Positions 1,204-64,000 of a stretch of DNA of 64,000 bases are shown in pieces. The stretch is from Rhynchosporium graminicola (taxonomy: Eukaryota; Ascomycota; Leotiomycetes; Helotiales; Ploettnerulaceae). Under the pieces are notes generated by a model. It worked only from the letters and a program-made list of their open reading frames with translations, was not told where the DNA came from and did not search any database. The DNA is taken from positions 248,001 to 312,000 of the forward strand of contig FJUW01000033.1 in the NCBI GenBank assembly GCA_900074885.1, written 5' to 3'. The position numbers and the translations under genes are program-made. The stretch's first letter is position 1; the number at the start of each line of letters is the position of its first letter.

Positions 1204-4200
1204 TCAGCCCATAGACGTCCCCAATGCCAGAAGCGTGTTAGCTTCTCGCGTTTCTACTCTTATAACCTCTGAAGATAAGGTTCCCCAGTGTTCACAATTG
1301 TAGCCTGGGGAGAAACGCGTGGCAGAATATACGACAAATGCCATATTGCCGCCCCTCAAGTTCGCATGTGATCGAACGTTTCCAATACCAAATTGGATCA
1401 TACATGCTGGGCAGAAGATAGCGCATCTTCCCTCCCGAAAATCGTACCTGACAGCAGCTGTTTCGAATGTGTCAATCCCCTCCATACGAGTCGCCGCCAA
1501 GCAGAGGTTGGAAAACGATCGCACGTTCGTCAGCGCGAGAGATAGCGCTGTCCGGCCACTCCTTGTCGCATCCGTCAATTGATAGCCTCGAGATAGCAGA
1601 CACTTGATGATCCGTACCACATGGTCCACATCACCTGACTCGTTGCGATGTGCTACCCAGTGGAGTGGAGTCGACCGTCCCTTTGACAAGAATCGACTGA
1701 TACTGCCGTTCCCCGAAGCTTGAACTATAGCCATAGAGCTACTCTCGTGATTATCAGCCTCTAATTGACTTGACCTTTCAGTTTCGGACAAGAGGTATTC
1801 GAATGCTTCAAATTTAAGTCTTGCGGCCGCGAAATGGAGAGGAAGTTCCCCCAAGTCGTTTTTGATAGTCGGGTCTGCGTCGTCGTCGATCATCTTTCGT
1901 AGCAGGTCAACTGTCCCCAGAGTACGATTCCAGCTCAAATGGTGTAGGACCGTGCTGCCTAATTTGTCCCTTGCGTTGATGTCGAGTCCATGGTCTTCTA
2001 GCAACTTCCAAATCTCGATAAACATTGTTTCGTCTTCAATCCTGCTTCCCGAGGCAATGGAATGCAGAAGATTATGTCCAAGTATATCTGTGACTTCGGG
2101 AGACCAATACGAGTCATCTAGCAGTAACTTTGCGGTTTCCATATTGCCTTGTCTCACTGCCTCTATCAAGGCATTCTCAAGCTCGCGGATGTCGGTCTTC
2201 CGTTTCTCTTGTATGAATTGGACCATTTCTTGCTGGCCAGACTCAACAGCCACTTTTAGAATCCTACACAGAAGCGGGCTCTCTAGGTCTAGTACTTCAT
2301 AACTTTCCATGATCCCTTTGAGCAAGTCTAGGTCTCCACTACGTACTGCAAAAGTCAAGACAGTGCCAATTGTGTAGTGGACATCCTTACTCGAAAGAAC
2401 GAGAGATTGCTGCTTCTGGTTTCTTCTACGAAAGTCTGCAAACAATTGAGCGTTACCAAAGTGGGCGTAAAAAAGTAAGGGGTCAATGGAACCACGGATT
2501 CTGAGCTCTGCGGTGTTTCTGTCGGCTCTTAAGGCCATAAGGTTCGAGCTGAGACCTATAGTGTCTCTGTTAACCGACAAAAAGAAACGGAAGAAGAAGT
2601 GGAGTTTCGCTGAACCGTCCGCGAAACGCTTCGTCTCCGTCAGGAATATCTGTGAAAGGCGAAAGAATTCTCTGGATATACTCGAAAAATCAAAGTTGTT
2701 GATCTTGGAACCGTAGTAGTACGCCTGCTTGACATGTATCGCCCAAAAACGCTGCGCATAAGAAAGAAAAATGTGGCGACTCAGAAATGCAAATTCTTTT
2801 GCATGCCTGTTGTTATCCCACGGAAGAGGTCCATTCGATTGAATTGAACGACGTGCCTTGTAGATGGTTTGAAGACATGCTATTGCCAGTTCGTGGTGGC
2901 AACTGGGCCGAGCTGGGATGGAGCTTTGCCACGTTGCTAAAGTGGACTGGGAGGATGACGATTCAACAATGAATGTCTTGGCCGACGAGTGGAAGAACTG
3001 AACAGTATCGTCAACGGTCCTGACGCGCAAGATTGGACCTAGAAGTCGTAGATCCGCTCGCAAGGCTTTGTATGTCACCGTTTCTTGGGCACTCGACTCT
3101 GCTGGATACTCTTTTGCACAGAGATATGCCAGCTCTTCAACTCGGAGAGGCTGATATGAATGGAGAAGGTACATCAACATCGTGGACGCTTTTGAGAGAA
3201 CCTGACTGGGAATTCGAGATAGCAGGGTTTGGTACACTTCTGTCAACGCATCTAGGCGATCTATAGTCTCGTCAAGTATGGGTTCCAGTTGACTACTAAG
3301 GGAAGCCGAGAGCTGCTTGAAAACAAGTGCCACCGGGAGAAAGAGGCTCGACGCTCTCTTCTTCAGACGAGAGATAGCGAGATCCCTCCGCGCATCTGTG
3401 TATCCTCTCGCCTGCGCAATTCTGTACAGTTCAGTATCGATGAACTGAGCGATGGCAAGATTGATGTCTGAATCCTTGTCATGTAGATCCACGACTTTGA
3501 GAATACCCTGAGTCACTAATTTTGACATGGAGGCCCCAAAAATTAGGTGTTCGAGTGGACGACTAATTAGTAGAACTCTCAAGTTGGGCTCCCCTTGTGC
3601 TAGTAACGCTGAAAGCTTCTCTTGGTTCTTTGGGTCGCATTCATCGAGACCATCCAGAATGAGATATACCGTCTTCAAGTTCGAAAGCTGGACAAGCTTA
3701 CGAAAGTAGTCCCAGAGAAATTCGGGACGGGCAGACCGTTGGCGCTCTTCAATTGCAACACCAGCAGTTGGAGTGATGTATAAACCACATTTCTTTGCGA
3801 TCTTCATCAGATCCGTCTGTTCGTGGCCATGAATTCGTTGCAAGAGTTGGTGAATGGCAATACAAATGACTGTGCTGGCAGTATCATTTTGTTGAGGAAC
3901 GCAGAAGCTGTAAATCGCGGCGTGGCTATTTTCTTTCCCGGATCTGCGTAAGATAGTATCGTAACTGTTGATGAAAGTCACAGCCAAGCTGGTCTTGCCT
4001 AACCCAGGACTTCCTGTCAACCACAGAATGCTGTACATTTGCTCAGACATCCAGCTCTGAATCTCTTCCCAATCGAGGAACCAGTCACATAGACCGATCG
4101 TAATTCCTTCGGCTCTGTCGTGGAATTCCTGCTGATACTTAAAAGTTTTGAATCCCTCGAGAAATCCAGCGAACCAGTCGAGTTGCTTTTCCGGATCAAA

Positions 4201-4406
4201 AGGATCGTTGGATCCAGCTAGCATGTTGAGAAATGCCTGTAAATCTGAACGTGGATTGTTGCGAACATAAAAGACAATGTTCTCAGCGGCTACTTATTAG
4301 CGGAATTCTTCATCGTCTGTACTAAGGGTATGGTACTGATTGTATTTCCAATCCGTACTTGAGCATTGCCGGACGCATCTACCCTCGATGCGGAGTTGGT
4401 TGTCAT
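1204..4406 (-). CDS. NLR: N-terminal HET-s amyloid motif, NACHT ATPase, ankyrin repeats
   Basis: Predicted cytosolic STAND immune receptor of 1038 aa. Exon 1 (4406-4323) encodes 28 residues. Residues 4-21, NSASRVDASGNAQVRIGN, match the HET-s amyloid motif found twice in the neighbouring HET-S protein. An 86-nt phase-0 intron (4322-4237, GTACAG...TTTACAG) joins exon 2 (4236-1204). The NACHT domain shows Walker A GSPGLGKTS (about residues 103-111) and Walker B YLILDGLDEC (about 219-228), then helical segments. The last third contains ankyrin-type repeats, for example GSTVLHHLSWN, GELPLHFAAA and STPLHWVAH. The C-terminus has Cys pairs (FCPAC, NCEHW). It is divergent to het-S, as nwd2 is next to het-S in Podospora, but with ankyrin instead of WD40 repeats. 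Exon 2 is certain. The first exon and its splice are inferred from motif and phase: the motif frame and the NACHT frame differ by one, so without splicing the gene would be frameshifted. Confidence 0.88.
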
Positions 4407-4693
4407 GTTGAATTCAAGTTGGGATACGCAGCCCTGGTAACAAAAAAGGATGTCATGCCCGAGTGTTATATGAGAGACGGGTCCAGGGCTGTGGCATTTC
4501 AGGAGCATCGGGGTGCCGCCGGGTAGACATAGTCCTCGTGGTGGGCGCTACTCGCCATGTATTTGATTCGTGGTGTTTTAGCCATAGCCACTGCCCGACG
4601 CCTCGCAGTAGCCGCCTTAAGGATGCACTTTCTGCCTCGAGTAACATCAGACGCTCACTACACTGTAAATACCCCTTCTCCGAATTTTTCTTA

Positions 4694-4726
<33 letters not shown>

Positions 4727-4945
4727 TTCTTCTTCTTCTTCTTCTTCTTCTTCTTCTTCTTTAAACTCGGCTTCGACTTCGACACCCAACCTTTCATTAC
4801 CAACACACATCACTGGGTCGCTTCTTAAAACCAGACCCATTCTGGCAAAAGATTGTGATATCACACATCGGAATTCGACACACTTTTGAAGTTTAAGTCA
4901 TCAAGATATTACTGCTCCGTACAGAGCATAGGCAGCTTTTCTGCC
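4407..4945. promoter_or_regulatory. Shared divergent promoter region of the NLR and het-S
   Basis: About 540 bp separates the two predicted start codons, which face away from each other, so both 5' leaders and promoters must lie here. A long TTC/CTT microsatellite occupies its middle. The arrangement would allow co-regulation of sensor and executor. No specific factor-binding site was recognised. Confidence 0.6.
4694..4762 (+). repeat. (TTC)n microsatellite in the divergent promoter
   Basis: Nearly uninterrupted CTT/TTC repeat of about 65-70 bp, pyrimidine on the plus strand. It creates spurious poly-Phe, poly-Ser and poly-Lys frames that should not be annotated as genes. Confidence 0.95.
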
Positions 4946-5800
4946 ATGGCCGAAATATTCGGCGTTGCTGCTGGCGCTTTGAGCGTTGCATCATTGTTCA
5001 ACAATTGCGTCGACTGTTTCGATTACATTCAACTCGGCCGCCATTTCGGTACCGACTTCGAAAGATGTCAGTTGAAACTTGACATCCTCAAGACTCGTCT
5101 GGGTCGATGGGGCCAGGCAACTGTCCTCAATGACAACCCTAGTTTCGCTACCAATCTGCCCAATGAGAAAGCCGCTCAACAGGTCCAAGCAATCCTGGAG
5201 GAAATTGCGTTGCTTTTTAGGTCGACCCAACAGTCATGCAAGCGGTATAAGATTAGTGCAAAGCCAGAAGATTTGGTTTGTCTCGAACAGAAGGACATGC
5301 CGCTGGTGCTTCATGGCCTGCATGGCAAGCTGGGGGATGTGGCTCGCCGAAGGCAAGGACGGACAAGTCTACTCAAGAAGATGAGTTGGGCACTTTACGA
5401 TGCGAAGAATTTCGACAAGTTGATCAAAGAGATGGTGAATTTGGTGGAAGACTTGGAGCAGCTGTACCCAAGCGATAAGACACAATGTAAGCTGGTCGAG
5501 ATGGACATTGAAGGAATCGAAGATGAGCCAAGCTTGTTGGCACTGACGGGAGCCGCTGATGGCACCGATGCTGTTCTGATGGATTTGGCTATGAGGAAGG
5601 TCGAAAAAATCGTCGTAAGGAATCGCGCAAAGGACATCAAGAGTGAAGGGTTGGCGGAAATACTTGTTGGAAACGAGTGGGCTCAGCGTGTCATGACAGA
5701 TGGTATGAGCATTGCTGAACAAACGGAGAACTCCACAGACAATATCGAGGCGGGAGGTTCTTCCAAGGTCCAAGTTGGCAATCGCTATGGAGTGAAATAG
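4946..5800 (+). CDS. het-S: HET-S/HET-s homologue: HeLo domain plus prion-forming domain
   Basis: Single-exon protein of 284 aa. The start at 4946 (MAEIFGVAAGAL) was chosen over an in-frame ATG 60 nt upstream because it matches the HET-S family N-terminus and length (289 aa in Podospora anserina). Residues 1 to about 220 are the HeLo domain, the membrane-targeting cell-death domain of the family. Residues 226-243 (NRAKDIKSEGLAEILVGN) and 262-279 (NSTDNIEAGGSSKVQVGN) are the two beta-solenoid pseudo-repeats. Asparagines 226/262 and 243/279 fall at the same positions as the Podospora Asn ladders. Position 33 is His, the residue that marks the Podospora HET-s (prion, non-killing) allotype; HET-S has Pro. 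The protein stops at residue 284, so the last five family residues, including an aromatic pair, are missing. Expected role: execution of NLR-triggered or incompatibility cell death, or prion behaviour. Its allotype is unknown. Confidence 0.95.
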   Translation: MAEIFGVAAGALSVASLFNNCVDCFDYIQLGRHFGTDFERCQLKLDILKTRLGRWGQATVLNDNPSFATNLPNEKAAQQVQAILEEIALLFRSTQQSCKRYKISAKPEDLVCLEQKDMPLVLHGLHGKLGDVARRRQGRTSLLKKMSWALYDAKNFDKLIKEMVNLVEDLEQLYPSDKTQCKLVEMDIEGIEDEPSLLALTGAADGTDAVLMDLAMRKVEKIVVRNRAKDIKSEGLAEILVGNEWAQRVMTDGMSIAEQTENSTDNIEAGGSSKVQVGNRYGVK

Positions 5801-8131: not shown

Positions 8132-9607
8132 TCAAGGCTGCTCGGTCCAAGGAGCTCGACTACCACACACAAGTCAGCACAATAACTAGTCTCACCTCTT
8201 CCAACATCTTGAATAAAAATGGAAAACCTACCAAAGCGCACATGTCCTAATCGCAAAGTCATTCAACCTATTCCACTTCTCAAAACACTCCCGATGGATG
8301 TTCTGTCCGCATTGCTTCTCACACCAAATAATGTCTTCTCCTTCTTCGAAGACTTCGTAGCAGGCAAAACATTCCTCGATTGCTTTTCGTTGGGGAATGT
8401 ATGGCTGAGGTTGAGCTGGGACTGGTATTGGGACTCGGACCCTGAATAATGGATGTGGTGCTGGAGGTGCGGGAATAGGCTGGATGTTGAAGAGTCCTGG
8501 TCGGAAAGCAGCGGATTCTGACTGTCGTACTGGGTATCGATGAAAGTGTATGGGAGCGGCTGGAGCTTCGGGTATTGGGATTGGTTGATCTTGTTCGACT
8601 GGACCCCGCTGAACCTCGAGCTGTCGGACACGTTCTTGAAGTGCACGTATCTGAGCCTCGTACTCAGCTTGCATGCGTCTAGCAGCCACTAAGTCTGGAA
8701 TTTGTCCCTCAGCTGGTAGGACGACCAAATTCGGATGGGCTCCAAATCGACTGCGGAGCACTGGCTCGAATATGAGATCGGCTGCTGGATCTAGATTTTG
8801 CGCTGGATGTTGAGGAAGAGCCTGGTTTCTGGGAGCAGAAGGCTGCCCGTTAGGTTCCCGTCGGACTTCAGGTTGAGCAGCTGGAGTTTGAACTCGATAT
8901 TGACGAGGACCAAGCATGTTACCAACGCGTCTGGCTTCGACTTGTTGTCGTTCATGTCTTACTTCAGCCGCTGCTGCTGCGAGAATGGCATCTACTCTGG
9001 GGTCATGAGATTTTGCATCTCGTACAACTGGTTGAGAGCTATCTTGCTGCTGCTGTCCACTCGGATAACGAATTTGATCTACATCTCGTGCTGGCTTGAT
9101 ATCTGGTCAGCAAGTAGGATGAAATAGCATGAAGAGCAAGATGCTTACCTCCTGTCTTCCTCTTCTCGCATCACTATCACCATGAACTCTCAACGCAGGA
9201 CCCGAGAGCAATTCAGCCATCCTCCGCTCGTTCCTCAGCTCACGCTTCCGACCCACAACCCATGCTTCAACCTCACCTACCCACACAGCACCCACCTCTC
9301 TAGCCTTCGATTTCCCTGGCTTATTATGCGAATGTGGACACGCCGTAAGCTCCGCAATTCCCACAAGCGCTTGCTTCACGCCATCACCCACACCATCAGT
9401 CACGACATCCATCTGTGCAATAACGCCGAGAGCGCGGTCGGCTTGCGATTTGCAATCGTGCGAGATCATGCTCTGTTGACATCTACGTCTTGGTTCCTGG
9501 GGCTGACCTCTCTTCCTTTTTGGGAGGATGGGAGTCGTGCATGTGAAGCCTGGTGAGTAGACGTGGAGATCTAGGAGAGTGCGGGGATCCCAGAACGTGG
9601 GTGGCAT
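8132..9607 (-). CDS. RING-type zinc-finger protein, probable E3 ubiquitin ligase
   Basis: Reconstructed as three exons: 9607-9149, 9094-8232 and 8159-8132 (449 aa). Introns of 54 nt (GTAAGC...TATCAAG) and 72 nt (GTAGGT...GGTAG) keep the frame. The second intron splits the RING: exon 2 carries CFACYEVF, then WCEKQCGQNIHRECF, and exon 3 restores TCALCRAPW, completing C-x2-C, C/C, H-x2-C and C-x2-C ligands before the stop. The middle is Pro/Gln/Arg-rich with a short coiled coil (about RRMQAEYEAQIRALQERV). The N-terminal exon is less typical and has no domain I recognise. A C-terminal RING suggests ubiquitin-ligase activity; substrate and compartment are unknown. The splice model is inferred, but the completed zinc-ligand pattern supports it strongly. 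Confidence 0.8.
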
Positions 9608-47268: not shown

Positions 47269-48374
47269 TTGTGTGTTGAGCGGACGGGTTTGCCTTGATG
47301 GCAATATTTCTTTGATACTGGCGCTCGGATTCATGGTTTAGCTAACCCATACGGGAAGATAGCTTGCCCTTTGTATTTTTGTTACGATAATGGCTTGCTT
47401 TGGAGCGTGCAGCGTGTAGTGTACAGCCTACCCCGTATAGACTTGGGAAGGATGGCTAGGCGCTCGGGTGCTTGGTTCTTTGCTTTGTCCTATTATGCTT
47501 CTTTTCTTCCTTGCCTGGAATTTGAATCGGACTGGAAATGGTGCATGGCATAGCTTACCTCTGCTAAGATAGCATGGGAAGGACGGCTTGGTGCTCTGGA
47601 AGTTTGCATTAAATATCTCTTTTAGTCGCTGGCTACTTGATTGCCTGGCTTGCTTGTTTGCTTGCTTTCTTGCGCTGTGACGACTTTTAAATGAACTCAA
47701 TTGGAGCTCGTATAGTTCCTGAATGATCAGAGAGACAAGGAAATAAGTGAACCCCTTCATTACAGGATAGCTTTATGTTACAAACCGACATCTTGCGTTT
47801 GAGAACCCATTTCTCCTCGCCTTTGATACAATCTTGATTCAAAACCATCGCTCAGATCTGATAGCTTGCCATTCCCCCAGTACATAAATCTCTCTACATT
47901 GGCATTACGATTACGAATCAGTGCACACGAAGGAAGTTAAGCAGGGCGGGTTCGTCCCTCCCTTTTCGGAAGCTCGACAAAGGCTCTCTCAGCCTACGAA
48001 GGTACGTTGCAAATTCAATACTGAGTTAGTGTCATAGTGAGCCATACCTAGAAGAAGGAAAAAAATATCGCAGGACTGCTACGGTTGGCGTAAATAATTT
48101 TTTCAAGGCACATGAAAGAAGAAGAAGAAAGAATTCATCGGAGGACGGACGGATGGGTTATTGATATTGATATTTAAGGTTCTCGAGGTAGGAGTTTCCT
48201 TTCACTTGTACGTGATTTCGTAGTTGGGTCGATGAGGGAGAAATAACTTATTATAACTTTAAGACTTGGGGAGATATCGATCCTAAGATAGGGAGGTAGC
48301 TTTGGAAATAGTCACGTGAGTAACGTAAGCAGTGACATTACTGGTATGAGACACAGAAAGTAGGTGGGTAGGTA
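47269..48374. other. Gene-free flank before the transposon block
   Basis: Base composition is still host-like. No gene seen. The AT-rich block begins exactly at the hAT terminus. Confidence 0.55.
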
Positions 48375-48382
48375 GTCGAAGG
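48375..48382 (+). repeat. Left 8-bp target-site duplication of the hAT element
   Basis: GTCGAAGG, identical to the 8 bp at 52020-52027. An 8-bp duplication is the hAT hallmark. Confidence 0.88.
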
Positions 48383-48418
48383 CAGTATGAGAAAAAATAA
48401 TCAACCTAATCAATTATA

Positions 48419-48459
48419 ATCGATTATAATCGATTATAATTAGATTAGATTTAATTAGG
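48419..48459. repeat. Left subterminal palindromic repeats of the hAT element
   Basis: Two overlapping copies of ATTATAATCGATTATAAT, a perfect palindrome, just inside the left end. Related copies occur at 51893-51930 inside the right end, followed on both sides by TAGATTTAATTAGGTT and CCTTTGATTAGAT in the same orientation. They probably mark transposase-binding sites (inference). Confidence 0.7.
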
Positions 48460-48689
48460 TTAATTAGACCTTTGATTAGATTAGATTAGATTATAATCAA
48501 TGATTAGGATTAGATTAGGCTTGATTATACTTATATATTTAGCTATATAAGCTATATAAAGATAAATAAAATAAAGTATATCTTACTAATTAAAGGTATT
48601 TATATAATTAATAAAGAAATAAGGTATATTTTATAATTCTCTTTTAATCTAACTTATAAGAAAGAAATCTTCTCTATTATTAGCCTGCT

Positions 48690-51367
48690 CTATCTCCTCC
48701 TCCTCTTCTTTTAAGTCGAATATAAAACCCCAGCTTTTTAATAAGCTAATCTCCTCGAAAGTATCTTTAGATAGTCTATTTCTTAGCTTATTAATAATTA
48801 AAGCTCCAAGACTAAAGAATCTTTCCGAGGGCGCTGAAGTAGCCGGAATTTGTAAATATCTCCGTACTAATAAAGATAATATCGGATATCTATCTCTATT
48901 AATAGCCCAATAGTCTAAAGGCTTAACCTATAGCTTATATTAATATCTTATATATATATATATATATATTAAAGATTATAAAAAAGGTTATATACTTACT
49001 TTAATATTCGATCTTCTTTCTTCTAAATAAGACTCTAATTCGTCGATTTCTTCTTCTTCTTCGTATATATATATATCGTCTTCGTCTTCGATAGGTATTA
49101 TCTCCCTATTAGGCATAGGGAGATCTATATTAGCATGAACCTTTAGACTATAAAAATTAGTATTTATTTTAGTATATATAATATAAAGAAGACTTATAAA
49201 TTATATTCCTCTTAAAATTTTCGCTTAATATCGCTTATAAGTCCGTTACTAAGTCCTACTAGACTTAATCTGTCTATTTTAATTCGAGGATCGAGAATTA
49301 AGCTTATATATAAAGCTTTATTATTCTCAGTAATACTAGTCTTTAGATAATACTTTCGGAGCTTAGCGATTCCTTTATTAATAGCTGAAGTAAAAGGTTC
49401 CTATAAATATTAATATATTATATTATAGAGATTAAAGATAAAGAAGTACTTACTGAGTTTAGACTATCTCTTATAGTCTCTAGTTTAATATATATCTTAT
49501 AGATCTCCGGAACTAGATAATATATAATCGGATATTTCTTAGCTTATAATTTTATTATAGTTTTAACAAATATATCGAAGATTCGTAGGTACTTTTATAT
49601 ATACTCTAACTCTCTTTCGCTAAGAATTAATATATTTCTATATTTCTTAAATAACTTACTTTCGGAAGTAGATATAACTACTAATATAGCAGGCTATAGA
49701 TTAAGGAAGTTTTTAAGCATATTAGCTATAGAAGACTACCTTGTTTTTTAATCTATATTAATAATTATATTAGTAAGTATATTATTATATAAATATTAGA
49801 TAAAAAGATTAATAACTTACCTAATTGCGGAAAGCGAGGATTTTTAATCTCTAGAGCCTCTATATGCCTTTTTAAAGCTCTATTATTCTCTCCCGAATAT
49901 TTAAAGCCTAATATAATAGTCCTTATCTTTTTCTATAGAGAAGTATCTATTAAAATTTATATATATATTAATAATAGAAGAATATAACTTACTATTATTT
50001 AAATCCTCCTCTCTATTATTCTCGATATTTAATATATCTTCTCTATCGTTTAGTTCGCTATAAGCGTCTTTAATAATATTCTTCAATATATCTTAAATAA
50101 TAAGATTAAGTATATGAGCTATATACGCTTATCTCCTTGAAACTTTATTCCTTTTATATTATAGTCTTTGATAAAGGCTTCTATAAGAGTATCGTTTGAG
50201 CTAGCGTTATCTCGAGTAATACTATATATAGTTAGTTATTTATATTTAATATAAAAGAAAGGATTATTATAATACCTTATAATTCTATCTTAAATATTCT
50301 ACTCTTCTAAAGCTTTAGATAAAACCTTAAAGAGATATCTTCCGGAGTGAGGCTAGTTTAAATAAGCTATACTAATAGGGTATGACTTAAGCTTAAAGCT
50401 ACTATCGATATAGTGTCTATATATATAGTTAGTATTATATATATCTTACTAGTAAGTAATAAATTAATTAAAGGGAAACTTATATAGTAATACCTAGATA
50501 AGAGTCTTGATTTATAGTAGTCTATACGTCTAAAGTTAAAGAGAAATATCCGTTCTCTTTAATATTAAGATTAAAATCTTCTTGAATTTTCTCTTTTCTT
50601 TCTTTATATATACTACTTAGATAATCGTGAAGTATTTTATTATAAAGAAGAGGAGATTACTTATTATATAAAATTAATAAAAGATATATAATAATATAAT
50701 AAGAAAACTTACTCGTTTAAATAAAGAGTTAACTCTCTAAAAGAAGTACTTAAAATACTTCTAAACGAAAGATTATTTTCAATAATAAATCGAATTAAAA
50801 GCGACTTATATTTCTTTAAATTAAAGGGCTCTTTTATAGGCGAAGCAGGCCGCTTAAGACCTCTAAAGGCTTGAGCTATAGTAGTTTAACTACTATTACT
50901 TCCTTAACTAAAGGCTTCTTCGATATCAGAAGTATCTAATAATAGTTAGTTAATTTAATAAAGAAATATAATATATATATAGTACTTACTTGATTCCGAG
51001 TCTAAATATATTAAGACTCTTTGAATATTATAGGCCTTATGATTAGCCTTATAGTAAGTAATATAATTACTTGTAGAGTAATTAACTCTTTGATTTCTGA
51101 AGACTTTTCTATTAAGATTATTATATTAGTATAAATTATAATAATTAAGTAATAATAAAGAAGGTAATATACTTACGAGCAGCCTTTATAAAGACATTTA
51201 ACTGTTATTAATCTAGGCCCTGTAGGGTCGGGATTAATAGGTTCTAAGGTCTTAGAGAATAGACCTTTCTTAAAGATAAGAGGTAAATCGTTAGTATTAA
51301 TCGTATAATCGGGCTCGTTTTGAGCTCGATTAATACTAATAGCAGTTTGATACCCGGTAGAAGACAT
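48690..51367 (-). pseudogene. hAT transposase remnant
   Basis: The N-terminal 64 codons are open (51367-51173). The best-preserved part is the C-terminal dimerisation domain at about 48915-48690, reading RYPILSLLVRRYLQIPATSA followed by PSERFFSLGALIINKLRNRL. The P-x-S..A..L.IPA.SAPSER.FS pattern is diagnostic for hAT transposases. An acidic tail follows. Between these lie many stop codons, as expected after RIP. Zinc-finger (BED) residues could not be confirmed. Confidence 0.85.
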
Positions 51368-51892
51368 AATATATATATATATATATATTATAAAGTAAAA
51401 TAGGTTTAGAAATAATAAGATAAGTATAAGAGTAATACTAGTAGATATCGATAAATCTAAGGAAGATATTTCGGATTCTATAAGAGAGTAAAAGCCCTTA
51501 TATATATAATATATAGTTTCTAGAAGACTCTATTTAGCTATTAATTTCTAAGCTTATTACTAATAGATTCTTTAATTAATAAGGATTAGAAACCGATAGA
51601 ATAAAATAGAATCTTCTAGAAAATCTTTAAGAGTTCTATAGTTATTAATTATATTCTAGTAATTTCTTTTATTTTCTAGATTTTAATTATTAATTTATTA
51701 CTAATAAGCTAATATTACTAATAGAACCTTAGTTAATTCTAGTAAATTCTAGTTATTTCTATATTTAGATTACCTACTGCTAGAATCTCGCTTTGAAGCG
51801 AATCTAGGCTAAGAAGCGAGGCGGGAGCCTAAGCTTAGAAAGGGAACCTAAGCGAGTATCTAAGCTCCTTTGAGCCTAGCCCTAGATCACGT

Positions 51893-51975
51893 GCTATAAT
51901 CAATTATAATTAATTATAATCGATTATAATTTGATTAGATTTAATTAGGTTCAAATTACCTTTGATTAGATTTGA
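51893..51975. repeat. Right subterminal repeats of the hAT element
   Basis: Copy of the left subterminal array in direct orientation, containing ATTATAATCGATTATAAT and TAGATTTAATTAGGTT, followed by the GATTAGATT motif in both orientations up to the terminus. Confidence 0.7.
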
Positions 51976-52019
51976 TTAGGAGGTCATAATCTAATCTAAT
52001 CTAATCATTTCGCACACTG

Positions 52020-52027
52020 GTCGAAGG
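52020..52027 (+). repeat. Right 8-bp target-site duplication of the hAT element
   Basis: GTCGAAGG, matching 48375-48382. Confidence 0.88.
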
Positions 52028-52029
52028 GG

Positions 52030-52034
52030 GTTAC
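52030..52034 (+). repeat. Left 5-bp target-site duplication of the LTR retrotransposon
   Basis: GTTAC, matching 60735-60739. It lies only 2 bp from the hAT duplication. Confidence 0.8.
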
Positions 52035-52167
52035 AGAAAAGGTATGGGAACAGAACCTCTTGAGAAGCGTAGTTGTATTTCTTACAAGGTTTAGAAACCT
52101 TGAGAGTAATCTATAGAAGAGAGAGGTCTATGCGCTACTAGCTAGGTGCAAATCTAGTAATATCACA
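52035..52167 (-). repeat. 3' LTR of the Ty3/gypsy-type element
   Basis: About 133 bp, aligned end to end with the 5' LTR at 60602-60734. On the element's strand it begins TGTGATATTACTAG. The pair differ at about eleven sites, all transitions. The LTRs are short for this class. The outer end is ambiguous by one base. Confidence 0.85.
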
Positions 52168-52899
52168 AGTCTACTACTACCAAGTCTCGCCCCGAGACCT
52201 CTCTTTCGTGAGTTCTAATACGCTATAAAACACCTGTAAATATACATCTCGAAAGCTATATACTCCTAAAACTCTCTTCAGATAACTCCCCTTCGAGACA
52301 GAGAATATCTCTATCTTATATCAGGACCTTATACCTATATATCTTAACTCTATAGTTAATAACTTCTGAACTTCTATATATATTATCAAACTCCCTACTC
52401 TTACTACTATACCCCTAGTATAGAATCTCTAGCTATAACCTCTATTTTTCGATCTGTTCTAAGCTCTACTAGCAGAGAATATTTGCCCTTCTTAGCTCTA
52501 AGGTTTTAATATAATAGTAGTCTTTCCTCCTATCTATTTATAAGGTATGAGTTTCGCAGATAAAAGAGCTTTATTTGATCGATATAGAAGTATCATAGTA
52601 TAGGTGTTCCGTTAATTTGCTATAAGGTATAAGATTTACTATATTCGCTACTTATACCGGAGACTACGAAAAGACCTCTCTAGCTTAGACGCAGTTTTTG
52701 CCTAGCTATAGTATAATCGTAAAGCATAACTATAGAGCTAATTCCTAGATACTGCTTTCCAGATATCCTTAGATCATATATCTCCTTCCGTCTTATTCTT
52801 TCTAGGTATAAAGCTATATCCACTTATTCTAATTTAGTAGCTTATATCCTAATATACTCTAATACCTTATCTCCCTTTTCTTTACTCTTTTTACTATCG

Positions 52900-55700
52900 G
52901 CTTCCTAAAGCACTTCAGGGAATCCCTATAAGTCTAATTCTTAATAAATCGCTCTAATATAATAGGTAGGAAAGGCAAGGTCTACTTCTGACCTTAGCTA
53001 ATACCTACGGTATATATAAAAGGGTAAGTACTTAAGGAACCTAATCTCTCTTAAATTCATTTTAAATACTACTTTTTAGAGCTTAATAGTATAGTCAGGA
53101 CCGGTCTTAGTTATAGCTTACTAGACTAAATCAATAGCCTTCTCTGCTATACCCGTGGACTTCTTAGAGGCTAAGGGTAAGTTAAGCTATAAAACACTTT
53201 TCTTACTAACGTAGTTTCTGATTTCTTCCCTAAAGTGACTTCTAGGATCTATATAAAAGCTAATAGGTATATTATCTGTCTTAAATAGTATATCCAGCGA
53301 TACCTTAATATATTCCGAGTTAGCTACTGTATAAGGAAAGGCCTAAACTAGCCGGGAGAAGTAGTCTATAACGATAAGAAAGTATCTATAACTCTTAGGC
53401 AGTTATATGAAAAGTCTATAAAAGTCTACTCTAAGTAATTCTATTAGTATAGAGACTATAATCTAGGAGAGTAGTACTAACTTCTGAGCCGGTCCGTGTT
53501 TCGCGTATTATAGATACTTAGTAATATATAAAGTAATATCCTTAGTGAGTATAAGCTAATAGATACCTCTGAGTTTTCTAGTAGTAATAGTCGATACAAA
53601 ATGTCCTCCCTTATTATGCGCTTTTACTAAAGCTTCTATAACTTATCTTAGTATAAGATAATATTTATATACTCCTCTCTATTTATACTATAATACCTTA
53701 TACTCCTACTTATATTTCTTATATCAGAGCTCTAAGGATCTCTTTCTTATACGATCTGCACTATCTAGGTAGATACTATAGAGAAGGAACCTAATAATAT
53801 CCTTATACTAGTATATCTTCTTATAAGCTTCTAAAGGGGATATTAGCTCGACTATTACTAGCTTCGATAACTAGTAAGTCTCCGCAGATAGAGCTTTAAA
53901 TATTTTATAAAGAGGTATATCTTCTAAAACTTATAGTCTAGTAAAAGGTGAACTTAACTATAAAGTTATATCCTAGAATCTCTCTCCTATTATATATAGG
54001 GCAGCTATAAACTCTAGATCTTCCTTCTTACCTCCTGCTTATTTCTCGATATTATCTACCTTAAATATCTCTCTAATAACTTCTAATTTCTTACTATTAG
54101 TCTTCTTAGTACTAAGCTCTAACTCTTTTAGCAGATCTTCATATCTACTAATTCCGTCCTTCTATCTCTAGATAGGTCTAGTAGCAGTCTACTGCTCTTC
54201 TCTAAACCTTATTATATCTAGTCTATCGTAATTATCTCTAGGAAAAATAGTACGTGATAAAGTATCCGTAGTCTTATTTCGGCTACTAGGAATATAGTAA
54301 ATCCGTATATTTAATAACCTTAGCTCTAAAGCCTACTTAGTATAAATTCCCTCTTAAAGAGCTAAAGAATCCAGAAAGTAAGTTAATAGCTAATAATCTA
54401 TATAGATAATTCCTAGCTTATCTTCCTGTAATATATAATAATATTTGCGACTAAACTCTATAATTAATAGGAGCTCTCTTTTATACGTTCTATAATTCCT
54501 TTAGGTTTTAGAGAAGATAAAGCTATCGAAAAGGATTAGTACTATCTTCTTCTCTCCTTCCTTAGATTATATAATATAATATCCTCCTGTATATCTACTA
54601 GTATCTGTATATATTTATACTAGGAGAGTTAGATCGTGGCTGTTTCTCTCTATTACTCTTAAGTATACTTCGTTTAGTAGCTCAAATAATATCGCCTTAT
54701 TCTCTTTCTATCTCTATTCTATATCTCTAGTAAGTCGATTTAATAGTCGAGTAATCTCCGTATAATTCTTTACCTAGGGCCGCGTAATTTAGATCGCTCC
54801 TAGGAATCTTCTGACCTCTATAGTATTCTTAGGAACTAGCTATACTTAGATTCTTAAGGCCCTTTCTAGTTTAATCGTTAATTTACCTCTAGCTTTATAT
54901 AAGGTTCCTAAAACTAATACCTCTATTATAAATAGTAAATACTTCTTAAATAAAAGTTTCAGACTAGACTATAGGAGTCTAAGTAAGAGATAGTCTTTCA
55001 GAAATATAAATGCCTCCTTAAATATCTTAAAGGCTATAAAGATATTATCTATATAGAAGAGTAAAGACTAAAGAACTACTCTACCCTCAGAAACAATTAG
55101 AGAGAATAGCGAGAGCTCAGAGTTATCGAAACCTTTCTCTATTACCTTAGCAGATCTTAGTATATCTCTAAATACTAGCTTTATAAGTTCTATTATTAGA
55201 AAAGCTAAGCTTTTATACCCTTAAGGCATACGTATTAGTTGTAGTTAGCTGTAGCCTAATATAGAGAAGGTATAGATATAGTAGTCGTCTAAGTATAAGT
55301 TTACTAACTAGTAGGCGTGTTTCAGATCTATCTAGATAAATAAGCGATACTTAGGATTACTAAGAAATATAAAGTATTCCGCTATAGAAATCATTAAGTA
55401 GCTAGGAGTTTTCTCTTTGATCTTAGAGTAATTACATATTACTTTATACTCTCTAGTTTATACCTTAGAGTCTGATCCTTTATCTACTATATATAGGTAG
55501 CTATTCTAATCTGATAGCTCTCTATTAGCTAGGAGAGTACTTTCAAATATACTATACTTAATTCCCTCCTTAATCGTCTTATTCAGCTAGGCTAGCTTAG
55601 CTAGGGTATATCTTCTAGACGCGTTCTCCTAGATTAGCTTAGAATACTCTAGTATCCTAGCTCTATAATAATAGAGATCCGTGAAGAGTATATCTTTCAG
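52900..55700 (-). pseudogene. Retrotransposon pol remnant (reverse transcriptase, RNase H, integrase)
   Basis: Minus-strand readings include KYRLFIQIDLKHAY (about 55356-55317), FYIDNIFIAF, a changed YxDD box (about 55066-55032), RNKTTDTLSR of RNase H (about 54285-54256), and the integrase segments KGGHFVSTITTRKLRGIYW and LLRVDFIDLFI (about 53610-53400). Frames are broken by many stops, many of them TAG/TAA at positions where CAG/CAA/TGG would be expected. Confidence 0.85.
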
Positions 55701-56389
55701 GTCTATAGAGTTAATATAGCGATATATATATAGAAGCTTATAAACTTGCTTAATTTATTCTAAGGGTATAGCGTTACTAAAAGTCAGGTCGCTCTTAGCT
55801 ATCTAAGTATTCAGAATCTCTTTAGTTACTTCTTCTATAGGTAACCTGACTATCCTCCTCTATATAAGAAAGGCTATAATATATAATATCTTTTTACTAG
55901 TTTCTGTAGTAATATTCTGGGTTTTAGTATAGTTACTATATGTTCTAAGCTAGCTAATAGATATAGGTCGATATTGGAATTTCGAGGAGGGCTTAATAGC
56001 TAGATAATAAGACTAAAAGTAGTTACTGCGGATTCTCGAGGGTTTTAGCTTCGCTATATTATTTAAGGACAGAAGAAGCTGTAATAATAACCTGGACTAA
56101 GTAGTAGCCCTTCTAGTCTCTAGTATATATATAGAGGTAATATCAGCTTAAGTAAATAAGGCTAGGAATAAGCCTACTAATACAGAGGGGTGCTGATTTG
56201 CAATAGGCCTTCCTTCTACGGAGGATATATAGTCTTTGAAATTTGAAGCTTTAGGAGGCCCTTTTAATATATAGGAAACTTCTGAGATATCTGCTAAATA
56301 TCTAAGGTTTCGGGTAGTTCTAAATACCTCTAGATAGCTATAGCAGGCTAGTAATAAGTTTAACGTCGTCTTAGGATAGCTTAGTAAGT

Positions 56390-59250
56390 CTAGTTTTTTA
56401 AAGAGTTAGAATCGCTAGAAGAAGAAGCGTCTTCAGAATCCGATTCGGAAGAAGAAGAATTAAAAGCGAACTTATTATTAGTAGTAGAGATATCCGAGCT
56501 CTTTGTAAATTTGATAATTAAATTAGATATATCTTTATTAGACTTTACTTTTAGGTATAGAATAAGATTTAAAGAGGAGGATTCCATAAAGAGAGGGCTC
56601 TAGATAGTAGTCGTTATTTCTTTACTTCTATTGCCTCTAAGGGTAAGGAGACTTTTATAAATGTCGATCTTCGCATCTATAGAATAAAGCTATAAAAGCC
56701 CGAGTAGTAAGCTCAGCTTCTTATTATTAGGACTCTTCGTATCTCTTATAAACGCGTAGACTCTGCGCTATATATCTTTAACTCTAAAATCAAAGACGAT
56801 AAACTTAGTAAGCTAATATTATATACTATCTGCTATACTATAGCTAACCCCGGTATACCTATAAGAAGCTAGTAGAATCGTTTTTAACCTCAGATATTAC
56901 TATAAGGCAGGAGATATAATAACTAGGTTAGAACCTTTATCTATAGAATATATTCTAACTTTTAATTCTATAATAGTAGTCTTGCCCTTTTTAACTATCT
57001 TTATCTTCCTAGGAACCCTCTAGGCCTTATTAGCCGAGTAGACTCGTAGCGTAACCTATATAAGCTTAAGATTTCTAGTTATAGCTGCAGATAAAGCTTA
57101 TGCAGATCTAGTGCTAGGTATCGTAGTAGGGTTATTTTTATAAGTTAAAGACTTTAGACTTATCTTCTTCTAGTTACGATATATTAATAGTTTGCGAAAT
57201 TGCTTTAATATCTTTAGTAATATCTGAAATAATTCTAGAAGATTTATAGTAATATTAATTCTAGTAGCTAGGTCCTTAAAATTAACTAGCCCTAGTCCTT
57301 TACGCCTAACTATCTCTCTTAATTATTTCCTTTTCTTCTTATCTTCTTTTATCGTAAGATCTTAATCCAGATCCTTAAGTAACTACTTCTAGTTCCTTAG
57401 CTATATCTTACTCCTTAGGAATATTAATCCTTATACGCTTCTTATACCGGGTCTTATATATTACTCTAGTATAAATACCTTTATCTTCCTTCTCTCCTTC
57501 TGCTTTATTTCCTAATATCTCTATAGACTCCGCTTAGTACTATAAGTTATCTAGAAGTATAATTATAGCTTTCGCTTTTCCCGCCTTATTACTTAACTTA
57601 GTAGATCTAGCTTAGATAAATTAATTAAATAAGGTTATTTCTACTAAGCTTAGTATACTAGCTCTATCTGAGCTAGAAGATAATATTATAGATATTATCG
57701 ATAATAATTTAGAGGTACTAAAAGGAACCTTATTATCTATAGCTCTAGGTCCTTCGATACTATAAAAGTCTCCCTATAGTTGAGTATATAATACTTAGGT
57801 AGTAGTTTCTAAGAATATAATTTATTTCAGGTGCGTACGCTTCTAAAAGGGTAATATAACATTTAGATAAGCTAACTTAAGGTAGCTATAATATCTATAG
57901 CTAATATAGAGGATACTATCCCTCTTGGAGTTATATACTAGGGTTCTATTAATATATAAGTTCAGGCTTTCTCGCGCCGGTTATAATAGAGGAATATTAG
58001 TAGAAGTATTAATATTAGTTTATATTCCGTTTCTGGGATATAACTACTATCTGTCGCTTATATTAAAGTTATTTCGATAGTAAGGTAGCTAGTATTACTA
58101 AGGTTAGTACCTAGCTCTACTCCCGGTTATCTGCGGAGCTTGAATATTTAAGGTTAAAGAGGTAGTAAGCTATAGTACCGGCTATAATTAGGGTAGATAA
58201 GTAGATAGGGCACTTAAAGAATTCTGCCGGGATTAATAGGAGCTCGAAGGATTCTGAGGTAAGCCCGAAGAATTATTCTGCTGACTCGAAGCACTAGTAT
58301 TAGTCTGTACTCTATAGGTAAGCGTGTTCTAGGTATAAGCAGCTAATATAATATATATAGGTATTCTTATAGCTTACGCGATATACTCTTCTAGTCTATT
58401 AAAGTACTTTCTCTTCTCTACCTCTTCTTCTACTTTCTTCTGCGCTTTAATTAACTATTACGATAGATATAGTACCTTATACGTTCTCTATAAGTATAGA
58501 ATACGTAGAATATTATTATTTAAAGTATGAACTCTTAGCTTATTATCTTTAATTCCTCGGATAAAAGCTTAAGTAAGAGAGGTAAGGATATACTTATTAG
58601 AGGTCTTCTTAGGTAGTAAAGGTTCTCCTAGACCCTTCTTAATATTAGTAACTCCTATACGCTTAAGAAGAGTTATAGTATAGTAGTAGTAAGAGGTAAG
58701 GTTCTCGTGTTTACTTTAAATAAAGTTTAATACTTTAGCTATAATATCTACCTTATCTAAGGGTAGTTTATCGTCTAAGTATTAAGTCTTAAGCTACTTA
58801 ATAACTTCTTACTTCTTCTTCTTACTCGTATATACTCTATTTTATATAATCTCCTTTATTCTTATATCTGATCTGAAATATTAAGAAGTATCGCTACTTA
58901 GTAAAATCATAATAGCTCTTAAGTATATAAGTATAAGTAGTATTAGACCTTCTACTTTAAAGTCATAGTTAAGGCGATCTAGCTATTATACTACAGGTAT
59001 ATCTCTATCCCTACTAAAGTCCTTAGCTCTCTTAAACCGAGGTATCTTTAATCTAGATATCTTATCTCTTCTAACCTCCTTCACTTTCTCTCGAGTAGCC
59101 TTTATATCTATTCTAGAGTTTAATTTCTACTGAATTCTTTCTTTCAGCTACTCTATTATTTCTCTAAGCTAAGTTTAATTATATATTATATAGCTTTAAT
59201 CGAAGATAGAAACCTTAAAGGCTTATAGAGGGATTAGTATTTTAGCTACC
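56390..59250 (-). pseudogene. Retrotransposon gag and spacer remnant
   Basis: A gag-like stretch reads at about 59100-58200 on the minus strand (for example IDIKATREKVKEVRRDKISR and DRLNYDF). A short open frame at 56587-56390 begins MESSSLNLILYLKVKSNKDI and has a Ser/Asp/Glu-rich end. Assignment to gag rests on position upstream of pol and general similarity to fungal gag, so it is less certain than the pol call. Confidence 0.55.
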
Positions 59251-60601
59251 TCTAGTGTTTCTTCTCCCTCCTTTATAATCGTGTTATCTTAATACAGTAG
59301 CTATATTAGCTTCGTTATCTATACTAATTATTAGAGATTTTAGGTTTAGGTTATATTTAGTAGCTTCTTTAGCGTTAATAGAACAGATAATTCTTAAGAA
59401 GTTATATCTTCCTAGATGTTTTTCAGCTCATAATAATAAGTATCAGATATAGAGCTTATTCCTATTGAATATTTAACTAATACGAAAGTTTAGAAACTTA
59501 ATATAGATTCTGGAGACTCTAGTGTATATAACTATATAATTAGTAATTCCCCTGATATATCGTAGCTATTATATCTTAAAGGTTATAAATATAATATCTT
59601 CTAGCTAGAAAGCTAATATATGGAGTTTATCTTAGCTGCTAATATAGTACTAGATTAACTCAGGGGAGGCTATACAGAAGTTGCGGGGAAAGGTAGGGTT
59701 AGCTTCGAGACTGCTCGAGCCAAGATAGGGTAGGTAAGCTCCTCGATATTCGGGTTCTCGAAAATTCGAAATTTAGAGAACTTTCGAGTTAATCCCTTTA
59801 GTTCTTTATAGAGATTTATATATAAGGGCTATGAAATAGTATAAGAAAGTGCTAAATCTATCGCGTCAGATTCTGAGGTTTAGTAGTCAGGGTATATCCT
59901 AGGCGACTATATAAGTATATTATTTATTAACTCTTAGAAAGAAGAATTAAGATTATTAGATTCTTTACTACTAGAGTACTAAGTATCGTTAATATATTAT
60001 AGTAATTATAGCTAGTTATAGTAGTATTATTCAGCTTTCAGCGTTAATATTATCTGTAGTTAGCTCGAAGCCAGGTTAGCGGTAATATTCTTGTTTCGAG
60101 GTGGGCTCGAAAGGGAGATAGCGGGGCCGGTTTAGGTCACTCGAGGCTCTCGAAAGGAAGAGCGAGGATATAGGGTTTCGAGATAACTTTTACCTAAGAT
60201 ATGACTTCCGTGATCGGATATAAGGTTATTATCCTTAGAGAAGCTATAGGTAATAGATCTAGATACTTCCTTCTACTGTTTCTAAGGCCTAGAAGAATCC
60301 TGAAATATATAGAGGTACTTAGTGCAAATAGCTACGTATAGCTAGGAGGGTATATATCCTTGTAATTTAAGGCCTTCTGATATTATAGGATTCTTTATAG
60401 ATATTCCGTCGATATCTGGAGTTTACTAAGGGCTTATAACTGAAATTTTGAGGCGATCTGGATATCTTAGGCGCTATAGTGATATTAGGTACCGCTAGTA
60501 CTATTGCTATACTCGGTAGTTTCTTCTAGAGAAGAAATTGAAGTACGAAAGAATTGCTAGTAGATAGAGATATAGCTTAATCTCTCCCTGCGGTAGTTAC
60601 T

Positions 60602-60734
60602 AGAAAAGGTATAGGAATAGAACCTCTTAAGAAGCGTAGTTATATTTCTTATAAGGTTTAGAAACCTTAAGAGTAATCTATAGAAGAGAGAGGTCTGTGC
60701 GCTACTAACTAGGTGCAAATCCAGTGACATCACA
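60602..60734 (-). repeat. 5' LTR of the Ty3/gypsy-type element
   Basis: Begins TGTGATGTCACTGG on the element's strand and aligns to 52035-52167 along its full length. Confidence 0.85.
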
Positions 60735-60739
60735 GTTAC
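60735..60739 (+). repeat. Right 5-bp target-site duplication of the LTR retrotransposon
   Basis: GTTAC, matching 52030-52034. Confidence 0.8.
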
Positions 60740-60755
60740 GTAGATAGGCGGTCCT

Positions 60756-61012
60756 CCACGGGTCGGCGGGAAACTGCCGATTTGTGAAATTGTGGCAAGC
60801 GAGAATACCTAGATGAGAATATCTAAAGATCTAATTCTAGAACTACATAATTCGAAATTTGTCGAGTAAGTTTATAAAATGGTTAGAATATTCTAATTTC
60901 ATATCTGTAGATTTTTTATGATACTTAATTTATTAAAATATTACATCATACTAAGAGGCTGGGAGAATCGCGAGCCTGCCTCAAAAATCGGCAGCTTCCC
61001 GCCTACACGTAG
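60756..61012. mobile_element. MITE-like element with inverted terminal repeats, about 257 bp
   Basis: Left arm 60756-60787 contains GGCGGGAAACTGCCGATTT. The right arm 60981-61012, reverse complemented, contains GGCGGGAAGCTGCCGATTT. Similarity extends outward over roughly 8 bases with mismatches. The interior is AT-rich and non-coding. No clear target-site duplication was found, so the superfamily is not assigned. Confidence 0.6.
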
Positions 61013-62430
61013 AGCCCGGTGCTCCTGAATATTAAGCGAGTCTGGAGCTAAATAGGAAGAGAACTCGCCAGCTATCAAGGAGAAGAATTCTAGAACCCTT
61101 ACTCGAGATTCACTCTACTTGCAATCTACTCTCTTATCTTCTCACGTCTTCTCTACACACCTACCTCTGAATATGCGAATAACCTTAAAGTTCTATCAGT
61201 ATCAGCTATGTTCTTCGTATCCTTTACGTTTACACTGCGCGATGTAAAGCAGCGATAGCATGTTATAGATAAGGCATGCAAAATGGAATGTCACAAGAGT
61301 AGAGGTATTAGAATCATTCGGCCTAGATTAGCAGATACTGCTTACGCAAGACGTGCGATATTAAAAAGACTAATAGAATTTGCTTCATAGGTATTATCTT
61401 TTATTCCTTGTATACCGTGTTGTCTAATCCTTATCCCTGCTTACTATATCCTATAGCAGTGATACGCGACTAGTAGAATGAACTTCGACTAAGTAATTTA
61501 GCGGGAGTTCAAAATATAAGCAAGATGATAATATATAATCGAAAATATTAAGAATACCTGAAGTACTCTTATACTCTCAGATCCTCCTGTATGGCAATAA
61601 CCGGAGGCTCAAAGGCTAATCAGGCTCTTTTAGAGTAATACGTGAGGCTACTTAATCAAATAAATCTATCTAATCACTTCCACCGACTACTGGTACGGGG
61701 GGTTAGTGAGTTAGTGAATCTGGGGGGAGGCGACTCCAACTTGTGAGCATAATAAATAAAATTACATGGATATATCAACTCTGATGTGAAAGTTTCGATT
61801 CATGTTAGTAAACTCTAAAATCTCAGATTTTTACTTTAGGTAAACCTTGATAGTATATATCATACTTTCCCCCTTAATAACTTGAAATTGAAATTACTTC
61901 CATGGTAATCTACGAAAACACTACAGTAATTCGCCAGTGAGAATTTCATGACGAATCACCTCTTTGAACTCCTCTCAGGTACCTTCGCACTAAAATTGAA
62001 CCGCTTTAGACCTGTGCTATAAGGCATGCCAGGGCATAGAACCACTCGGAGCCTTGAATTCATGAATTTGACCTACTATTATAGATATTTAGAGGGGAGA
62101 CAATCTAATAAAGCCTAAGTCACCTACTTGCTTTCTCCGTGGATCTGAACCTGACAGGGCTTCTATCAAGGGTTATGTAATAGGTCTGTGCGCCTAGTGC
62201 CTCCCACTCCTGTATTTCAGAATTAGAGAGGAAGGAAGAACCTTCTCTCCTTAGTAATTAGTTTCTATATTAACTAGGTTATTAATAGCGAACCTCTAGC
62301 GACTATTCTACTATTCTATTATACTTATTTACTCTAGCGTACTAAGTAATTATTATATTCTAATTACTTTTACTTAATATTAGCCTAAATAGTTATAATA
62401 GCTTAAAGCGGAGAATCCTCTATTATATTA
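61013..62430. other. Host-like or mixed spacer in the transposon block
   Basis: Less AT-rich than its surroundings and without a supported gene. From about 62.2 kb composition shifts to the mutated AT-rich type; an LTR of the next element may lie near here but could not be delimited. Confidence 0.4.
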
Positions 62431-64000
62431 AAATGACTTATACTCTAAGATAACTCTATTAGAGCTTAGATAATACTTAGCGATATACTAGTAGATAACC
62501 TTTTAGTTCTATAAGAGAAACTCCGATTACTAAAGAAACGGAATAATATCTTAGATAACTTCGATAGTTAAGTACTAACGAATATTTAGTAAAGACTTTA
62601 CTTAATACTCTCTAGAAACTATTATAAGAGTATAACTCTATTAAGCTTATATATCCGAAGACCTTACTCTAAGTATAGAGAGAGATACTAGTCGATTAAT
62701 AGCTCCTAAAGAATTACTAGTTCCTCGCTAAGATAAAAGTAAATATATAATTCTACTAGAATATAAGAGTAAAAGCTAAAGAGAGCTTACTAAGTACTTA
62801 TAAGCTTATAACCGAGTCTTCGACTATAATACTAAAAGGTACTTAACTAATTTTTTTAAGATTAAATAAGTAATAATACTACTTTATAAGAAACTAGTAA
62901 ATACTTAAGAAAAGTTTAAGAAGTATACTTTAGATACTCTTTATATAATAACTTAAGAAAGTTATAAAGAATTCCTAGTAAATCTCTAGCTACTTTTTAT
63001 TTCGCGAAAAGTAGCTAACTTATAAGCTTACGAGAACGCTTACTAAAGGCTAAGTTAACTAATTAAGAAGTTTATAAATTACTTTAAAGAAAAAGAGAAA
63101 TAACTTAAACTCTTTACTAAATATTAATTATAAGATATCTTATTTCATAAGATCCGATCGGAGATTCGCTAGAAAATCGTCGAGAATAGCTAAGCTAATA
63201 GACTTTAGACTTAAGACTAAGTTATTTCTATTATTACTCTTTAAGAGATATATACTTTATTTAGAGATACTAATAGTAATAAAAGATAAAAGGAACTTAA
63301 AGAGTAGAAATATAAGAAATTAAATACGAAGAGGAATAACTCCCTATATAAATACCTATAAAGAACTAGCGACTCATAAGATAAAAGCTAATAAGGATAA
63401 GAAAAGAGAAGAGATCTAAATAATATACTTATTAGAGATTAGCTAATAAGATAAGATATCTCTAAGGTTTAGTACTACTTTTATAATAAATATAAATATA
63501 TCTCTCTAAACTATCTAAAATCAAATACTAGCGATATTAAAGATAAGTGCTAAGGAAAGCTATAACTCGTAGTATCTTCTATATACGAGCCGGGTTTACT
63601 AGTTAATAAGATAGAAATCTAAATAAAGATCTTATCTTATAATAAGTAGAAATTAATAACTATTCTTATTAATAATAAAGTAGAAGTGACTTTATATTAA
63701 AACTAATTACTAAAGAATATAAGCTTAAACTTACTAGCGAAAGACTAAGAAATTTCTAGATACTTTCATAGAATAAAAGCGTTATCTATAGTACTATAAT
63801 TACTTAAGTAGAGATAGCCGATTCGATTAGATAAACTAGACTTAAAACTCTTTAGCTAAGAGTGATCGATATACTAGATATAGACCTAATATTAGAGTAG
63901 CTATAGTTAGAGGATATAGATCCTTAGATAAGCTTTAAGAATCAGTAATAGAAGTTTCCTTATAAATTAAAAGATTCAGATAACTTTAATATTATAGTAC
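62430..64000 (+). mobile_element. Second degraded retroelement, gag/protease part, cut by the window end
   Basis: Plus-strand frames, interrupted by stops, read like a retrotransposon gag (for example KRYLTNFFKIK near 62.83 kb). A degenerate zinc-knuckle-like stretch lies near 63475-63530 and a protease-like block INNKVEVTL near 63671-63697. The strand is opposite to the Ty3 element at 52-60.7 kb. Family assignment is tentative. Confidence 0.5.

Follow-up and report, generated by a model that had tools for sequence, protein, structure and literature searches.

A probable HET-S/NWD2-type amyloid-signalling gene pair in Rhynchosporium graminicola

A 64,000-nucleotide stretch of the genome of Rhynchosporium graminicola (Helotiales, Leotiomycetes) carries a gene of the HET-S type head to head with a gene for a NOD-like receptor (NLR), and the question it raises is whether the two make up an amyloid-signalling pair like HET-S/NWD2 of Podospora anserina, in which a motif (R0) at the N-terminus of the NLR would template the two amyloid repeats of HET-S (R1 and R2) and thereby kill the fungus's own cell. 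We put the probability of this reading at about 85%. The stretch analysed, called the window below, is G000:C42:248001-312000 in a 55.3-Mb fungal genome of 121 contigs. Both genes lie where a preliminary description of the DNA had placed them (1204–4293 on the reverse strand with an ATG at 4406, and 4946–5800 on the forward strand). The features needed for the argument are the following.

4946–5800, forward strand: HET-S-type cell-death executor, 284 amino acids (aa), single exon, complete open frame
4961–5542, forward strand: HeLo domain, residues 6–199 (PF14479)
5597–5791, forward strand: HET-s prion-forming domain, residues 218–282 (PF11558; predicted two-rung beta-solenoid)
5621–5674, forward strand: amyloid repeat R1, residues 226–243 (28.3 bits in a repeat matrix excluding this protein)
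5729–5782, forward strand: amyloid repeat R2, residues 262–279 (34.6 bits in the same matrix)
4407–4945, no strand: region between the two start codons, 539 nt, with a TCT tract inside
4337–4406, reverse strand: predicted NLR exon 1, ATG at 4406, bearing R0 (PF11558 on the translation; in-frame splice options)
4344–4397, reverse strand: R0 amyloid motif, NLR residues 4–21 (31.9 bits; genome PF11558 match G000:C42:252332-252403)
4290–4336, reverse strand: most likely intron, 47 nt, GTACCA...AAGTAG with branch site CTAAT, predicted from the analysis of GT-AG joins
1204–4289, reverse strand: NLR main exon with linker, NACHT-type nucleoside triphosphatase (NTPase), ankyrin repeats and C-terminal tail (open frame 1204–4293, 1029 aa)
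3559–4095, reverse strand: NACHT-type NTPase, residues 67–245 of the open reading frame (ORF) (PF24883, E = 1.8e-24)
1534–2367, reverse strand: ankyrin-repeat sensor, about ORF residues 643–920 (Pfam Ank families)

The forward gene encodes a protein 100% identical over 100% of its length to R. graminicola WAI453_007733 (P0021), and the preliminary description was right to call it a HET-S executor; the protein is complete, and both of its parts are found by Pfam and in the predicted fold. The HeLo domain matches PF14479 with E = 7.7e-51 (173.3 bits against a cut-off of 23.2) and the prion-forming domain matches PF11558 (HET-s_218-289) with E = 8.4e-21 (74.2 bits against a cut-off of 32.2); a sequence search of the PDB pairs the latter with 2kj3 (E = 2.6e-10), and NCBIfam has no match for the protein. 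An AlphaFold2 model (window protein plus 53 of the best 120 of 167 homologs, mean pLDDT confidence 83.7) agrees with the HET-S HeLo crystal structure 2wvo at a TM-score of 0.97 by target length and 50% identity. Strands are modelled at 225–233, 238–241, 261–269 and 274–277, giving the tail two solenoid rungs, for which Foldseek returns the HET-s amyloid 2rnm (probability 1.00, E = 0.015, TM 0.63 by target). Histidine 33, the residue of the killer (HET-S) type and not of the prion type, is present, as in 96 of 121 aligned rows (the window protein and P0021 counted in), and G242/G278, N226/N262, N243/N279 and Y281 are retained. Charges that face each other between R1 and R2 are favourable at position 4 (K/D) and position 13 (E/K) and neutral at 9 and 11; of the 113 homologs whose two repeats both align without gaps, 7 have a favourable combination at position 13, 31 a repulsive one and 75 a neutral one. 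In a profile search of the genome (E<=10) PF11558 finds this HET-S as its one effector. Two further genes with a HeLo domain are present, neither with a PF11558 match: after L004 (G000:C68:1214409-1215020) comes a frame whose kinase and DUF7580 matches are weak, and L005 (G000:C45:270009-270356), where HeLo is the only Pfam match, has further on a frame that looks kinase-like by eye.

The open frame of the NLR matches R. graminicola WAI453_007735 at 100% (rounded) over 98% of its length as the query, with a few residue differences by eye. Its NTPase scores 87.2 bits with PF24883 (Nephrocystin 3 N-terminal; cut-off 24.8) and 26.5 bits with the NACHT family PF05729, 0.2 under the cut-off of 26.7, and its repeats score 88.7 bits with Ank_2 (cut-off 27.3). 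Ankyrin and designed-ankyrin chains are among the best 60 of 256 sequence matches in the PDB, and with an AlphaFold2 model (window protein plus 19 homologs, mean pLDDT 73.9, below 50 for residues 1–34) the Foldseek hits ranked 1–13 are all ankyrin or designed ankyrin repeat proteins, the NTPase not being addressed by the fold search. By these three routes (Pfam, PDB sequence and Foldseek) the C-terminal domain shows ankyrin repeats and no WD40 domain, as the preliminary description had proposed, so that the NLR is NWD2-like in place and motif but is not an NWD protein. NCBIfam gave ankyrin-protein matches only, far below their cut-offs. After the ankyrin repeats, at about ORF residues 950–1012 (1258–1446), comes a tail with CxxC and Cys-x-His that is shared with the NLR of Phialocephala subalpina; Pfam has no match for it and model confidence there is low, and it is possibly a small metal-binding sensor add-on. 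The top-scoring NLR relative elsewhere in the genome (L008, G000:C62:951243-952349) is 26% identical over the NTPase region and has no PF11558 match listed.

Both frames are intact, and the genes are divergent with 539 nt between their start codons, an adjacency that the preliminary description had pointed out and that is also that of P. anserina (PMC3321046). Relatives of both proteins are present in P. subalpina, which likewise favours the pairing. A TCT tract of 22 copies (4695–4761) lies between the start codons.

The two genes are linked by the motif as well. Just upstream of the NLR main frame an open stretch codes for NSASRVDASGNAQVRIGN, and its 18-mer aligns without gaps to both repeats of HET-S, with BLOSUM62 scores of 35 for R1 (6 identities, equalled by 1 of 100,000 shuffles) and 48 for R2 (7 identities, equalled by none of 100,000), bearing out the alignment given in the preliminary description. 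For a score independent of the window protein, a position matrix was made from the repeats of 119 HET-S homologs, the best 120 of 167 matches minus the identical P0021; it holds 117 R1 and 114 R2 sequences, 2 and 5 gapped rows having been dropped. In this matrix R0 scores 31.9 bits, between its own R1 (28.3) and R2 (34.6), while the best of the window's 53,879 stop-free 18-mers besides the three motifs reaches 13.0; not one of 200,000 shuffled versions of R0 attained its score, the top shuffle giving 27.2 bits. PF11558, a model of 65 positions spanning two repeats, has two matches in the whole genome at E<=10, HET-S (4.3e-20) and R0 (0.0365), though weaker motifs elsewhere may be missed because the genome search scored two first-look candidates only, and about 1.3e-6 chance matches as good as R0 are expected within 1 kb on either side of het-S. 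The resemblance is real and above chance, and the comparison with shuffled sequences that the preliminary description had called for came out in its favour.

The character of R0 also fits in large part. In published r0 motifs positions 1 and 18 are N, positions 10 and 17 are G, the residues at 3, 6, 8, 14 and 16 are hydrophobic and the one at 13 is positively charged, and such motifs are low in charge and r2-like (PMC4344463; PMC4518210); here N1, V6, G10, V14, I16, G17 and N18 agree. R0 is closer to R2 than to R1 by BLOSUM62 and contains three charged residues (D, E, K, R) in 18, against six in R1 and three in R2, the count of D, E and K being one, five and three respectively. This nearness to R2 and scarcity of D, E and K are as published for r0 motifs and support the pairing; the same traits are described for the HRAM1 subfamily of HET-s-related motifs (PMC4518210).

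Whether the motif belongs to the NLR depends on a splice junction. Upstream of the methionine at which the deposited NLR (P0001) starts, the main frame stays open to 4293 with no further methionine, and this stretch aligns weakly with the P. subalpina NLR; if it is coding, the start must therefore come from a 5' exon. From the ATG at 4406 there are nine in-frame GT-AG joins of 28–200 nt, five of which preserve the motif. The intron 4336-4290 is the sole one of the nine with a YAG acceptor within 25 nt past a branch-site match, its TAG lying 11 nt after the start of CTAAT, and its donor GTACCA has four of six consensus bases. The joins that cut the motif end in GAG, or in a CAG that lies 64 nt away from the branch-site match. 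As a reference we used 18 exon pairs in Ras-family genes of the genome, 8 of which we accepted on inspection by eye, their joined residues looking like conserved small-GTPase sequence. In these eight introns (46–228 nt) the acceptor was YAG every time and G was lacking at donor position 5 in four; one intron of 46 nt was seen, and the donors GTACTG, GTACTT (twice) and GTACAT were read. These statistics are partly circular since the scoring favoured consensus sites. A missed 5' intron had similarly hidden the motif of het-eN from its annotation (PMC3321046). We infer that the R0 exon is spliced to the main exon, with 4336-4290 as the best guess, and these observations suggest that the deposited gene model misses its signalling motif. 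Of the earlier claim that the NLR carries the same motif as HET-S, what the sequence shows is a motif encoded just upstream in a compatible frame; the junction is a prediction and the deposited protein is without the motif. A protein search with the fused N-terminus (residues 1–110) returned only P0001 at E<=10 among 47 candidates, so that no independent NLR with both an R0-like motif and this NTPase was found in it. The N-terminus of the P. subalpina NLR was considered as independent proof of the join: its alignment is suggestive (E = 0.27 in a single comparison), but with its motif at only 3.5 bits it was not counted.

Several results count against the proposed pairing. The deposited NLR starts at a methionine inside the main exon and lacks R0; four of the nine joins cut the motif, and two of these use the donor closest to consensus (GTACGG at 4358, five of six). 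The profile check proposed at the outset succeeded for HET-S, with both domains above their cut-offs, and fell short for R0: the 38-residue translation of exon 1 gives E = 9.8e-5 and 22.7 bits with PF11558, under the curated cut-off of 32.2, and the genome-wide match, at 20 bits, is also under it. At positions 3 and 8, hydrophobic in the consensus, R0 carries Ala, and at 13, positive in the consensus, Gln. Ranked by BLOSUM similarity to R0 among 235 homolog repeats, its own R2 comes 10th and its own R1 153rd, and the nine repeats of other homologs that are nearer than R2 speak against cognate co-evolution. In the annotated P. subalpina NLR the likeness to the motif is confined to its second half (3.5 bits, no PF11558 match), and the annotated A. 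niger NLR has no PF11558 match. Finally, HET-S ends at residue 284 (NRYGVK), without the C-terminal aromatic loop that carries F286/W287 in P. anserina.

Some of these points would be explained if the pair were ancestral and the motif had since become disconnected from the NLR in this species, or were spliced out in some transcripts, leaving HET-S an orphan or under a splice switch. The internal start of the deposited protein and the best-scoring donor at 4358, whose joins would truncate the motif after residue 16, fit such a history, and a parallel is known from het-s strains of P. anserina, where loss of function in the NLR goes together with loss of killing by HET-S (PMC3321046). We nevertheless think it unlikely: the long frames of both genes are intact and HET-S has kept H33, the methionine-less stretch with its weak P. 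subalpina alignment needs a 5' exon if it codes at all, the cutting joins depend on the acceptors described above, and the het-eN intron provides a precedent for an overlooked motif. That the resemblance should be a coincidence within an untranslated stretch is hardly credible. The motif is short, it lies under the Pfam cut-off and the deposited gene model omits it, yet no shuffle equalled it, the next-best 18-mer of the window was far behind, and the search of the genome yielded no PF11558 match but HET-S and this stretch beside it.

HET-S might, on the other hand, act independently as a stand-alone prion or incompatibility factor, the neighbouring NLR having some other partner. P. anserina het-s strains lend this an example, the prion existing there despite an nwd2 inactivated by a transposon (PMC3321046). 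We hold it to be very improbable, because the absent aromatic loop speaks against self-propagation and because the one further PF11558 match that the genome search gave precedes this very NLR.

The loop merits attention of its own. No aromatic tail was seen in 19 of 119 homologs by a crude pattern test, some entries being incomplete; the closest homolog listed (P0022) also lacks it, and P. subalpina P0023 has FF there. It is not strictly defining, being absent from a fraction of published homologs, and loop-less HET-S proteins occur in species with loop-bearing paralogs (a 2014 survey of 51 homologs, 22 of them aligned; PMC4055769). No loop-bearing paralog was found in this genome by the PF11558 profile search. 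A hidden 3' intron was considered, and one option yields a tail with F; this is unlikely, the intron having no branch-site match. In P. anserina F286A and W287A are null alleles for [Het-s], although the mutant proteins form infectious fibrils and enter pre-existing aggregates (PMC4055769). Since Podospora HET-s depends on this loop for its prion activity, the protein here may be active solely upon templating by the NLR. Tentatively, and with more doubt than confidence, one can picture a one-way amyloid switch in which the sole HET-S cannot found a prion itself and fires only on templating by R0.

If the HET-S/NWD2-type reading is correct, R0 would remain unfolded at the N-terminus of the NLR until the ankyrin domain meets its cue, upon which NTPase-driven oligomerisation would bring several copies of R0 together. 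These could stack as rungs of a beta-solenoid and template R1-R2, and the folding of the repeats would free the HeLo domain to insert into membranes and kill the fungus's own cell, the outcome being incompatibility or defence. In P. anserina steps of this kind have been shown: NWD2 chimeras template in a ligand-dependent manner and NWD2(1-30) relocates HET-S to the membrane (PMC4344463). The proposal that this is the same type of cell-death switch as in Podospora is supported at the level of homology, from which the function is read.

The likeness to P. anserina extends to the HeLo and two-repeat prion domains with a HET-S-type H33 (PMC3321046, PMC4344463), to the adjacent divergent NACHT NLR (PMC3321046) and to a single motif, predicted to be N-terminal in the NLR here, at nearly the same residues (3–23 in NWD2, 4–21 in the predicted exon). 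It differs in that the sensor is ankyrin and not WD40, that the motif stretch is split off by a predicted intron, that the F286/W287 loop is missing and that one of three facing charge pairs is retained (K229-D265), with E238-K274 in addition. Certain NWD2 homologs have ankyrin C-termini, the architecture predicted here, and of 55 genomes that have HET-S homologs 46 were reported to carry HET-S and STAND genes side by side (PMC4344463), so that this pair would be a further case of a known kind; 98 of 155 HeLo-related genes adjoin a motif-bearing NLR (PMC4518210). The het-eN/sesA/sesB group of Nectria haematococca likewise has a NACHT-ankyrin NLR beside motif-bearing effectors and a 5' intron hiding the motif, but its motif is sigma and its effectors are different (PMC3321046).

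The neighbours at 8231–37448 are ordinary (a RING protein, DUF383/384, an FMN dehydrogenase, a Ras-family GTPase, Nse1, a Cid1-type poly(A) polymerase, TFIIF-alpha and Bud13). No frame of at least 230 aa is listed in the window past 37,448, and 48000–64000 is AT-rich (GC 0.26–0.38 per 2-kb step against 0.43–0.51 elsewhere in the window), which looks like a decayed repeat region bordering gene space.

We found no publication on this locus or linking Rhynchosporium with HET-S, in a search beyond which most subscription papers lay. R. graminicola causes barley scald (PMC12160430), and the analysis points to a probable NLR/HET-S amyloid cell-death module in this lineage of the Leotiomycetes. Its naturally loop-less HET-S offers a means to ask whether self-propagation as a prion and killing on templating by an NLR are separable.

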